64,000 bases of DNA, from contig SUWN01000007.1 of the NCBI GenBank assembly GCA_015061465.1, positions 1-64,000 on the forward strand, written 5' to 3'. Below the pieces are notes generated by a model that did no database searches, was not told where the DNA came from, and was given only the letters and a program-made list of their open reading frames with translations. The DNA comes from Treponema bryantii (GTDB taxonomy: Bacteria; Spirochaetota; Spirochaetia; Treponematales; Treponemataceae). Position numbers and translations under genes: made by a program. Within the stretch, counting starts at the first letter, position 1, and each line of letters starts with the position of its first letter. Shown piece by piece: positions 60,438 to 63,838 of this stretch.

Positions 60438-61304
60438 GTGAACATCGACTCTTTGGTAGATAGGATTTTGGATTCTTATGAAAAATACGGTTTAATCAAC
60501 AGGAATGATATTGAAAATTTCCCAAACAGACAAAACGTTGTTTCAGTTCTTCAGGATTTACAATCATTGATTTTGCCAGGTTTTAAAGCGGCAGAAGATA
60601 TTGAACCTTTAAATATTCGGTTTATAACTGGGCAAAAAGTTAATAATATCATTGCGAAACTAACGCGAGAAATTCAGAAATCGCTAATTTACACAATTTC
60701 TAAAGTAAAAGGAAATTCTGACAACATAGAAAATTCCCATTGTTTTAAACTTGCAGAAAGAACTTCCATCGCGTTGATAGAAGAAATACCAGAATTGCGT
60801 AGAAAAATTCAGTTGGACACAATTGCTGCATATAATGGAGACCCCGCTGCACATAGCAAAGAAGAAGTTATTCTTTCATACCCAGGATTAGAAGCGATTG
60901 TTATTCACAGAATTGCAAATTTCCTTTACAAAAACGGAATCCCCATCATCCCTCGTATTATGAGTGAACATGTTCACGGAAAAACTGGAATTGATATTCA
61001 TCCGGGCGCAACTATTGGAGAATCATTTTTTATTGACCACGGAACTGGAGTTGTAATTGGAGAGACTTGTGTGATTGGTAAAAATGTAAAAATTTATCAA
61101 GGCGTTACTCTTGGTGCGTTGAGCGTAAAAAAAGAACTTCAGGACAAAAAAAGACATCCTACAATAGAAGATAACGTTACAATTTATGCAGGTGCAACTA
61201 TTTTAGGTGGCGACACTGTTATTGGAAAAGGTTGTATTATTGGCGGAAATACGTGGGTAACTCAATCAGTTGAAGAAGGAACTGTCATTACACAACAAAA
61301 ATAG
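60438..61304 (+). CDS. cysE: Serine O-acetyltransferase
   Basis: Makes O-acetylserine for cysteine synthesis. The 288-aa protein has an N-terminal helical domain of about 140 residues and a left-handed beta-helix (HPGATIGESFFIDHGTGVVI; GETCVIGKNVKIYQGVTLGA) with the catalytic His in DHGTG. It starts with GTG at 60438, after GGGAG. The C-terminal tail is short. It is a single-gene unit. No T-run terminator was found on its own strand. Confidence 0.93.
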   Translation: MNIDSLVDRILDSYEKYGLINRNDIENFPNRQNVVSVLQDLQSLILPGFKAAEDIEPLNIRFITGQKVNNIIAKLTREIQKSLIYTISKVKGNSDNIENSHCFKLAERTSIALIEEIPELRRKIQLDTIAAYNGDPAAHSKEEVILSYPGLEAIVIHRIANFLYKNGIPIIPRIMSEHVHGKTGIDIHPGATIGESFFIDHGTGVVIGETCVIGKNVKIYQGVTLGALSVKKELQDKKRHPTIEDNVTIYAGATILGGDTVIGKGCIIGGNTWVTQSVEEGTVITQQK

Positions 61305-61335
61305 ATAGATTTCTGTAAAAAAGCACAGAAATAAC

Positions 61336-61374
61336 AAAAAAACAGAGCCTTGATAGAACACTACCAAGGCTCTG
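61336..61374 (-). terminator. Minus-strand terminator in the cysE-radA gap
   Basis: A 10-bp perfect stem (61343-61352 with 61365-61374) followed on the minus strand by seven T (61342-61336). Read on the plus strand there is no T-run, so it should not end cysE transcripts. Confidence 0.8.
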
Positions 61375-61426
61375 CCGTCCAGTAAACTGGACATCGGAGA
61401 GAGTTTATCAGCTTATTTACAAGCTA
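61336..61426 (-). ncRNA. Candidate small RNA between cysE and radA
   Basis: On the minus strand an extended -10 promoter leads, about 60 nt later, into a perfect terminator hairpin (CAGAGCCTTG/CAAGGCTCTG, 61343-61374, loop 12 nt) and seven T. No minus-strand gene lies upstream to need this terminator. Within the predicted transcript there are also AGCTT/AAGCT and GTCCAG-TAAA-CTGGAC hairpins. An unpaired CTCTCTCC stretch lies between them and could pair with Shine-Dalgarno sequences. I do not recognise a known RNA family. The start is estimated from the -10 box. Confidence 0.55.
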
Positions 61427-61432
61427 ATTGTG

Positions 61433-61462
61433 ATTATATCAGTAAACGCATATACTCGCCAA
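61433..61462 (-). promoter_or_regulatory. Extended -10 promoter for the candidate small RNA
   Basis: On the minus strand TTGGCG (61462-61457), 18 nt, then TGATATAAT with a perfect TATAAT at 61438-61433. Confidence 0.55.
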
Positions 61463-61523: not shown

Positions 61524-62879
61524 ATGGCTAAAAAAAATGGTTCAATTTTATACAAATGTTCAAATTGTGGTTACACTCAGCCTAGATGGCTTGGGCGATG
61601 TCCAGAATGTAACGAATGGAATACTTTAGAAGAAATTATTATTGATAAAAACAACGTTTCTGCTAGTGGACGCGGAAATGAACAAGTAGAAAAATCAAAA
61701 CCATTAGAATTAAAAACTGTACAGGCACAAGAAAATTGCAGATTTTCAACAGGCATAGAAGAATTTGATAGAGTTTTGGGTGGCGGAGCTGAAAAACGGT
61801 CTGCAATTTTGCTTGGTGGCGAACCTGGAATTGGAAAATCCACACTTTTATTACAAACAGCACAAGGAATTGTTTCTAAATATGGTAAAGATTCTAAAGT
61901 TTTATACATAAGTGGGGAAGAATCTGCGGCACAAATAAAAGAAAGAGCAGAACGATTAAAAATCAACTGCGACAATATTCAACTTTTGTGTACATCCAGA
62001 TTAGAAGATTCTCTTGATGCGATGGATTCTATAAATCCGATTCTTGTAATTGTGGATTCAATTCAGACGATTTATTCTGTAAGTGCGGGTTTGATTCCGG
62101 GAACTATTAATCAACTAAAATATTGTGCAAATGAATTTATTTCGTGGGTAAAAGAAAGAGATTCTGTTTTAATAATGACTGCGCATGTTACAAAAGAAGG
62201 AACAATCGCCGGTCCAAAATCATTGGAACACATGGTTGATACAGTTATATCTTTTGAAAGAAATAATGATGATATTCGATTTTTGCACGCACAAAAAAAC
62301 AGATTTGGTGCGATAGATGAAATTGGAATTTTCAACATGACAGAAAAAGGACTTTTGCCAGTTTATGACACAGCTTCTTTATTTTTGACAAAACGCAAAG
62401 ATAAACAACCAAGTGGAGTTATTTGTACGCCGGTTTTTGAAGGAAGCAGAGTTTTTATGGTAGAAATTCAAGCGCTTACTGTTCAAGCAAAAGCTTCTTT
62501 ATCTAGAGTTTATAGTGAAAAAATCGACTCAGGAAGAATTAGCAGAATTGCAGCTGTTATAGAAAAAAGATGTGGATTAGTTTTTTCAGACCAAGACTTG
62601 TATATAAATGTTGCTGGTGGCATAAAACTTTCTGAAAGCTCCATTGATGCTGCAATAGCCGCTGCTTTATATTCTGCACGCACAGACATTCCTATTAAAT
62701 CAAATATTTGTGTTTTTGGTGAATTAAGTTTGGCCGGAGAAATTCGGGAAGTGAATAAATCTAAACAAAGAATCAAAGCTGCCAACAATTTAGGCTTCAC
62801 AAATATTTTGGCACCAAGTGAAGATTCGGGATGTATTCATGTAGAAAATATAAAAGATTTGGTAAAAAACGTGTTTTAA
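61524..62879 (+). CDS. radA: DNA repair protein RadA
   Basis: A 451-aa recombination helicase: zinc finger (CSNCGYTQPRWLGRCPEC), RecA-like domain with Walker A GGEPGIGKST and the RadA-specific KNRFG motif, and a Lon-protease-like C-terminal domain (AGGIKLSESSIDAAIAAAL). GGGAG precedes the ATG. The gene end overlaps the terminator of the convergent lipoprotein gene. Confidence 0.97.
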   Translation: MAKKNGSILYKCSNCGYTQPRWLGRCPECNEWNTLEEIIIDKNNVSASGRGNEQVEKSKPLELKTVQAQENCRFSTGIEEFDRVLGGGAEKRSAILLGGEPGIGKSTLLLQTAQGIVSKYGKDSKVLYISGEESAAQIKERAERLKINCDNIQLLCTSRLEDSLDAMDSINPILVIVDSIQTIYSVSAGLIPGTINQLKYCANEFISWVKERDSVLIMTAHVTKEGTIAGPKSLEHMVDTVISFERNNDDIRFLHAQKNRFGAIDEIGIFNMTEKGLLPVYDTASLFLTKRKDKQPSGVICTPVFEGSRVFMVEIQALTVQAKASLSRVYSEKIDSGRISRIAAVIEKRCGLVFSDQDLYINVAGGIKLSESSIDAAIAAALYSARTDIPIKSNICVFGELSLAGEIREVNKSKQRIKAANNLGFTNILAPSEDSGCIHVENIKDLVKNVF

Positions 62880-62941: not shown

Positions 62942-63349
62942 TTACTCTGTTTTATTTTCTGGGACTTTGATTCTGTTAAATTCATAGATTTTATTGTTTC
63001 CAAGAACTTTTATTTGTAAAGTATCCTTTTTTATATTGTATAAAACAACATCAACAAAACCATCTAATTCAGAACCTTTTAACGAAGCCCATTGTCCTTC
63101 AGGAGTTCCATATTCCAAATATTCCATTTTAATACCATTATTTGGAATTTCAGAGAATGTGTAAGTTCCTTTAAAAGCAACCACATCACTAGCATGTTTA
63201 TTTATAGAAATAAATTCTGTTTCTGTAAATTCCATGACTTTATCCAAACTTTCCCATACTCCAATCAACAATTCTTTTTGGGAACGAATGGAACAACCTG
63301 AAATAAGACAAATAAAAAAAATAAAAACTAAGTATAATCTTTTACTCAT
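62942..63349 (-). CDS. Small putative lipoprotein, lipocalin-like size
   Basis: A 135-aa protein with a signal peptide and lipobox ISGC (Cys19). The mature part is beta-rich (LIGVWESLDKVMEFTETEFI), as in small lipocalin-like domains, but the family is not certain. It lies 6 bp after the PEGA lipoprotein gene and probably in one operon. Confidence 0.75.
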   Translation of the reverse strand: MSKRLYLVFIFFICLISGCSIRSQKELLIGVWESLDKVMEFTETEFISINKHASDVVAFKGTYTFSEIPNNGIKMEYLEYGTPEGQWASLKGSELDGFVDVVLYNIKKDTLQIKVLGNNKIYEFNRIKVPENKTE

Positions 63350-63355
63350 TTATTT

Positions 63356-63703
63356 TTAGTTTTCTGGAGTAAGGATATAGTGTTGATTAGCTTTTGGTCC
63401 GTATACCCAAAGCAATGCTGGCCAGTTGAGTAAAAGACCAATAGCAAGGTTTCCACCTTTTAATTCTTTTGTAACACCAGTTCTAAGATCTTTGAATCCA
63501 TCTTTTTTGATAAGAACATCTGGATCTTCCCAAATTCCATTGCTGATTTTCATAGTAACAGGTGTTGTACCGATTAATTCTCCGTCTACAAATACTTCAG
63601 CACCTTCTTGATCAGCATGGAAAGTAACATTTGTACCAGAAATACAACTTGTGAATGCCATTACAACAAGCAATAGAATAGCAAAAATTTTTGCTTTTTT
63701 CAT
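63356..63703 (-). CDS. PEGA-domain lipoprotein
   Basis: At 115 aa it has a signal peptide ending FTSC (Cys20, relaxed lipobox) and one PEGA repeat (EGAEVFVDGELIGTTPVTMK). A hydrophobic GGNLAIGLLLNWPALLWVYG segment near the C-terminus may insert in the membrane. PEGA domains are thought to bind surface polysaccharide or peptidoglycan. The ATG at 63703 with AGAGG upstream is preferred to 63805, which would add 34 residues lying over the palindromic boxes. Confidence 0.82.
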   Translation of the reverse strand: MKKAKIFAILLLVVMAFTSCISGTNVTFHADQEGAEVFVDGELIGTTPVTMKISNGIWEDPDVLIKKDGFKDLRTGVTKELKGGNLAIGLLLNWPALLWVYGPKANQHYILTPEN

Positions 63704-63749
63704 AATAAAACCTCTTATAATTTTTTTTGAACAAAGCAACAAATTACAT

Positions 63750-63838
63750 ATGCAAATTTGCATTACATTTATTGCAACTGTCCATTTTGTAATTTTATCA
63801 GACATTTGTCATAAATACAACAAAATAAGACAGTTGTC
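63750..63838. promoter_or_regulatory. Palindromic operator-like boxes
   Basis: The divergent region holds a perfect 14-bp palindrome, ATGCAAATTTGCAT (63750-63763), two GACAnnTGTC palindromes (63801-63810 and 63829-63838), and CAACTGTC (63775-63782), an inverted copy of GACAGTTG at 63829. They lie between the PEGA lipoprotein gene and a putative HTH gene. Confidence 0.5.

Follow-up and report, generated by a model that had tools for sequence, protein, structure and literature searches.

The intergenic gap between cysE and radA in Treponema bryantii raises the question of whether its minus strand carries a small RNA (sRNA) gene and, if so, which RNAs the product would contact. The gap lies in a window of 64,000 nucleotides (the whole stretch of DNA analysed here), and a preliminary description based on the letters of this window alone had proposed such a gene.

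Identification of a predicted sRNA gene between cysE and radA

The features predicted at the locus are listed in Table 1. The promoter named in the preliminary description, an extended -10 element (TGATATAAT) with TTGGCG 18 nt upstream on the minus strand, was found as described. Of the 155 distinct copies of the family, 92% have a sigma-70 promoter (at least 9/12) upstream, compared with 10% of shuffles, and the spacer is 17 in 138 of these copies. The RNA is predicted to start at position 61425 ± 2 with the bases AGCUUGUAAAUAAGCUGAUAAACUCUCUCCGAUGUCCAGUUUACUGGAC and to end within the T run at 61340–61334, and the resulting 88–89 nt fold into three hairpins (−40.3 kcal/mol, z = −6.7 relative to dinucleotide shuffles), in agreement with the earlier estimate of about 90 nt and three hairpins. 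The seven T reported after the terminator hairpin are present, on the minus strand only, but the stem comprises 14 to 16 pairs including G-U instead of 10 bp. Its position was also misjudged, since the stem begins about 50 nt, not 60 nt, from the predicted start. The absence of a minus-strand gene close upstream was borne out, with radA (from 61524) and cysE (ending at 61304) both on the plus strand. Elsewhere in the window, a predicted lipoprotein that appears PEGA-domain-like by eye is encoded on the minus strand at 63356–63805 and adjoins another small lipoprotein at 62942–63349.

Table 1. Predicted features of the sRNA locus and its neighbours (positions in the window)
Feature	Position	Strand	Support or remark
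-35 element TTGGCG	61457–61462	minus	
Extended -10 element TGATATAAT	61433–61441	minus	
Small RNA	61337–61425	minus	covariance model R1, 94.4 bits, E 1.4e-17; also alignment A1
Hairpin 1 AGCUUGUAAAUAAGCU	61410–61425	minus	stem wholly replaced, with pairing retained, in L208, L209 and L225
Open seed GAUAAACUCUCUCCGA	61394–61409	minus	complementary to phage leaders (CGGAGAGAGUUUAUC)
Seed core AAACUCUCUCC	61396–61406	minus	in nearly all members, including divergent ones
Hairpin 2 GUCCAGUUUACUGGAC	61377–61392	minus	sequence variable, pairing retained
Intrinsic terminator hairpin and T run	61334–61376	minus	stem 61376–61341; all 11 stem pairs covary
cysE	60438–61304	plus	
radA	61524–62879	plus	

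In a 4-kb stretch, promoter-like sequences numbered 17 (16.6 expected from shuffling) and terminator-like sequences 2 (1.8 expected). Such scans alone are at chance level, and the case for an RNA gene therefore rests on comparison and conservation. Taken by themselves, these counts would fit a gap without a functional RNA, be it a terminator of cysE, a fortuitous promoter, or an attachment site for a phage, a role that sRNA genes can play. The restriction of the T run to the minus strand argues against a terminator of cysE, however, and the conserved promoter and the covariation described below argue against a lack of function. Nor would a single attP explain why one phage has three complementary sites, of which two immediately precede a Shine-Dalgarno sequence and start codon. 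We consider this explanation practically untenable.

Distribution and genomic context of the sRNA family

A DNA search of 39 genomes returned a match block exactly over the predicted 5′ half of the RNA in nearly all 23 relatives of the same genus, and an exact 21-nt core was found in at least 117 stretches of the species collection. Among the matches listed, the titles were those of treponemes or broader spirochaete MAGs, and the carriers included T. bryantii, T. ruminis, T. berlinense, T. porcinum, T. socranskii, and T. brennaborense. Covariance model R1, built from 58 dissimilar members (alignment A1), matched 169 of 196 same-genus genomes and 79 of the 84 of good quality, with two copies in 35 genomes and three copies in 3 (38 multi-copy genomes among the 169). 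Nearly all Treponema relatives from gut and rumen retain the sRNA. Across the phylum, R1 matched 56 of 393 genomes, all belonging to eight genera of one family, Treponemataceae; no match was obtained in the other families among these 393 genomes. Even at loose settings no member was detected in genera g15 and g16 (T. denticola- and T. pallidum-like), which gave only weak matches lacking the seed. Beyond the family, GATAAACTCTCTCC was matched about 22 times in 317 genomes, which is the control level; the matches that were fetched had no sRNA layout, and these matches were rejected. A second type of sRNA with the core UGAUAAAACUCUCUCCUUUAG was noted alone in L205–L207 and beside the main type in L212, L214, and L215.

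Of 133 distinct loci, 80 lie beside or near cysE, and 61 of these have radA nearby as well, which is the arrangement in the window; many of the remaining loci are at contig ends, and others are extra copies with different neighbours. The order cysE–sRNA–radA recurs, and in most copies cysE is convergent, so that the sRNA cannot be a leader of that gene. Copies elsewhere in the genomes likewise suggested a trans-acting RNA rather than a leader. A check proposed at the outset, whether the hairpins are conserved where cysE and radA have remained neighbours, was run with a positive outcome. TGGAGATTTT or a similar sequence was observed shortly upstream of the -35 element in L012, L014, L017, L028, L051, L102, and L146. 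A small protein was rejected as an alternative product, because the ATG is not conserved (GACG and GATT variants) and the lengths are not multiples of three.

No Rfam family reached its gathering score, as the preliminary description had anticipated in knowing of no named family, and the LhrC model gave no match at E values up to 10. The best-scoring family, the PyrR binding site (RF00515), shares the layout of hairpin, linker, and terminator, but its 29.1 bits fall short of the gathering score of 54 and no pyrimidine gene lies downstream; McaS (RF00115) was likewise rejected, with 20.5 bits against 42. Hfq (PF17209) was not detected in any of 21 genomes, whereas control genomes did match. No description of this sRNA was found in the literature searched. 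One survey of microbiomes contains candidate RNAs without names by the thousands, a number of them from Treponema (PMC8040213), and this sRNA may already be listed there as an unnamed candidate. Judged by sequence comparison, the conservation exceeds chance overwhelmingly and confirms the predicted sRNA gene, which belongs to an undescribed family; an unannotated gene outside any named family is thus supported, and its transcription is inferred.

Covarying hairpins and an invariant open stretch

In alignment A1, 93.5% of cells were paired and the covariation score was 0.542, compared with 0.197 for shuffled and at most 0.129 for slid alignments. Set A3, which was derived with the model and also contains divergent members, gave 97.9% and 0.624; this set was fitted to the covariance model and is hence biased toward its structure. 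Overall, covariation amounted to 0.54–0.62 against 0.20 (shuffled) and at most 0.14 (slid). Compensatory changes in helix 1 appear in A3, both sides have changed in 5 of the 6 pairs of hairpin 2, and RNAalifold alone recovered the same three main helices. Covariation is strong in all three hairpins.

The first stem has been replaced in other genera (GCCAC/GUGGC in L208, AGUCAC/GUGACU in L225, and AGAUUG/CAAUCU in L209), and AAACUCUCUCC, which lies open between hairpins 1 and 2, is retained in all three despite the entire replacement of that stem. Most of the phage leaders described below have a UUACAA loop, to which the UUGUAA of hairpin 1 is complementary; this UUGUAA is missing from divergent members of other genera. 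In most members the top loop of the terminator, AGYGUURCU, is conserved with a Y-R exchange (for example L044:3478–3571), and it has been lost in the copy of the window. Own promoter, intrinsic terminator, non-leader placement, and a conserved single-stranded seed are all features of a trans-acting base-pairing sRNA that are present here. A further one, partner sites beyond chance, holds for phage leaders and not for host 5′ regions, and transcription and a regulatory role in the cell are inferred.

Search for partners among host genes

Streptococcal csRNAs are small, multi-copy RNAs with a CU-rich open stretch. LhrC1-5 of Listeria monocytogenes are also small and multi-copy, with an open CU-rich stretch between hairpins (PMC4132741, PMC5880928). 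The Treponema sRNA resembles LhrC1-5 in its size, its multiple copies in some genomes, its CU-rich open stretch, and its own promoter and terminator. It might accordingly be a housekeeping regulator of several host mRNAs that makes short CU-rich contacts at ribosome sites, with the phage leaders as sponges. Retention throughout the family and the 38 multi-copy genomes would fit such a role, and sponging would explain why the phages retain the complement.

Host targets were scanned in 2.0 of the 2.8 Mb of one relative (G135). The duplex energies of the core with start regions (−35 to +25 and −70 to +5) fell within the range of shuffled cores, and 463 ribosome sites reached −10 kcal/mol compared with 371 ± 113 for shuffled cores. 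In the −70 to +5 test, no host 5′ region was below −18.4 except the sRNA locus itself. The radA and cysE start regions (79 and 92 sequences) paired no better than shuffles. A general anti-Shine-Dalgarno action was rejected, as GGAGAGA occurs at 3 of 2041 start regions and duplex counts were in the shuffle range; so was a partial match to the 5′ end of 16S rRNA, where the energy of the core (−12.8 kcal/mol) was weaker than or equal to that of 87–90% of shuffled cores. The earlier proposal that CTCTCTCC pairs with ribosome binding sites was thus not supported by any excess of host sites, and survives only in that complementary sites in phage leaders lie slightly upstream of the ribosome binding site.

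These results tell against regulation of several host mRNAs, which we retain as a possible but rather unlikely explanation. The sRNA further differs from LhrC1-5 in lacking sequence homology (no Rfam match), in its phylum, in showing no excess at host ribosome or Shine-Dalgarno sites (in one relative), in having phage leaders as best partners, and in a plain sigma-70 type promoter. By every testable feature of its sequence it is predicted to be a trans-acting antisense-type sRNA distinct from LhrC, PyrR, and McaS.

In a few MAGs of the genus (L428, L434, and L435), TTTCGGAGAGAGTTTAATC occupies the space between a repeat-rich gene that resembles those of surface proteins and the gene after it; variants of the site are present in L429 and L456. 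The shorter TTTCGGAGAGAGTTT site is about as frequent as its reversed control (about 7 vs. 7), and its shared position is notable: in L428, L429, L434, L435, and L456, a gene that by eye is InlB/BspA-like has TTTCGGAGAGAGTTT(T)AAT behind its stop codon, ahead of varied small genes. The element may mark the boundary of a cassette or be a place where the sRNA contacts host RNA.

Phage leaders complementary to the seed

Scanning virus contigs for the core identified one 54-kb contig with three sites (IMGVR_UViG_3300031993_000106), which encodes a portal and a large terminase. All three sites are intergenic and lie among small genes of the same strand, with the mRNA-strand layout TCGGAGAGAGTTTATC, AGCTTATTTACAAGCT, AAGGAGG, TTAGCT, and ATG, or similar; in one of them, the 33 nt directly upstream of AAGGAGG..ATG are complementary to the sRNA. 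The seed complement GGAGAGAGUUUAUC was found shortly upstream of a Shine-Dalgarno sequence and start codon in four related phage contigs and one other, usually followed by a hairpin whose stem varies while core and loop are constant. Of 19 virus contigs retrieved with GGAGAGAGTTTATC followed by GGAG, five have the leader layout (L405 twice, L413, L417, L418, and L423) and the others look like chance matches; the same leader is present in the related phages L417/L482 and L418/L483, in L413, and in L423. Because L405, L413, L417, and L418 share genes at about 45–76% identity, they were assigned to one phage group, to which nearly all leaders belong.

A reversed-seed control returned 5 contigs, none with the leader layout, and the AATC and TTATC control seeds returned 7 and 9 contigs with one leader-like site, apparently overlapping a coding region. 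The leaders interact with the sRNA of the window at predicted energies of −20 to −43 kcal/mol, whereas shuffled leaders average −4 to −7. Within each phage, the core energy was −21 to −28 for leader genes and about −13 or weaker for the next best gene start. Most leaders were retrieved through the seed complement, so the invariance of their core is partly by construction; the leader at L482:6389, with one mismatch, was not retrieved in this way. The complementarity itself is evident from the sequences, and pairing in the cell is inferred from it.

Three phages carry a leader after one and the same conserved 69-aa gene. The stem differs among these leaders (AGCUU..AAGCU vs. CGUAC..GUACG) while the core and the UUACAA loop are constant, and the genes downstream of leaders differ, which indicates a modular element. 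The very strict conservation of the 11–15 nt open stretch could alternatively reflect protein binding or a scaffold function of the invariant pyrimidines, from which the phage match would have been derived; modular leaders before different genes, each with a Shine-Dalgarno sequence and a start codon, instead point to RNA pairing and make such a function highly improbable. The exact complementarity of the seed to phage message start regions suggested that the sRNA probably acts by RNA pairing with partners that are in part viral.

A seven-codon frame was observed behind the leader that follows the 69-aa gene (MRMPQAP-stop at L405:11246–11269 and MYWPTAP-stop at about L482:8106–8130) and is possibly a leader peptide. 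The related phage contigs L437 (3922) and L439 (8363) carry CGGAGAGAGTTTGTTATAATACTTACAAGGAG (CGGAGAGAGTTTG...) before different genes that by eye are replication-like; this sequence may be related to the leader and belong to a different lineage. Rfam did not recognise the phage leader, and the plasmid and named-phage collections yielded nothing of note. Recoding of TAG in the phage was considered and not needed. A terminase 38% identical in one Treponema genome (G157) is the only, weak support for Treponema as the host of these phages, which is not established.

Discussion

We think it reasonably probable, on these comparisons, that the locus encodes a constitutively promoted, trans-acting antisense sRNA of Treponemataceae of about 89 nt that pairs with RNAs bearing CGGAGAGAGUUUAUC, the clearest being phage leaders. 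In the proposed mechanism, hairpin 1 at the 5′ end would present the UUGUAA loop, hairpin 2 and the terminator would hold the body of the RNA, and the strand between the hairpins would display the seed. The clearest partners would be leaders of early-region genes in a group of tailed phages, arranged as a 15-nt seed complement, usually a hairpin with the loop UUACAA, a Shine-Dalgarno sequence, and a start codon. Pairing could extend over 15 to 33 bp, possibly initiated by loop-loop contact, and next to the ribosome site it should alter the translation or stability of phage messages, a change that, like its direction, is inferred. As the leader core lies upstream of the Shine-Dalgarno sequence, direct occlusion is not assured.

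Antisense RNAs such as CopA/CopT and Sok/hok start pairing by loop-loop contact. The Treponema sRNA and the phage leaders resemble them in their complementary hairpin loops and adjoining single strands, and in one leader complementary over 33 nt; they differ in that the sRNA acts in trans from the host chromosome on phage partners and that the stems are not complementary in most pairs.

Which side would benefit is a separate matter. A host might keep the sRNA as a defence that silences early genes in a common group of phages, as a long duplex adjoining the ribosome site, a promoter of the constitutive type, and family-wide retention would allow. The phages, however, conserve a perfect site while the adjoining stem changes, and one mutation would suffice for escape; a phage should lose a harmful target site, and repression would thus need explaining. 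We regard this defence as improbable, and exploitation or sponging is at least as likely as host silencing, because the phages keep the match while the stem changes. Phages may have evolved modular leaders that recruit the conserved host sRNA to early messages, switching on or timing genes only in hosts that bear it, an idea that we put forward tentatively and with considerable doubt.

Host miR-122 is a conserved small RNA matched by conserved sites in the leader of hepatitis C virus. The likeness, a conserved host small RNA matched by viral leader sites, is an analogy only, since the present case concerns a bacterium and a phage and no effect has been measured. If true, recruitment of a host sRNA by phages would be the bacterial equivalent of the exploitation of a host microRNA by a virus.

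Regulatory RNA of treponemes, a lineage without recognisable Hfq, is almost undescribed in the literature searched, and a family-wide sRNA with a strict seed would offer a first entry point to it. Should the phage leaders prove to be genuine partners, phage gene expression would be tied to a conserved sRNA of the host, and the question of who benefits would become directly testable.
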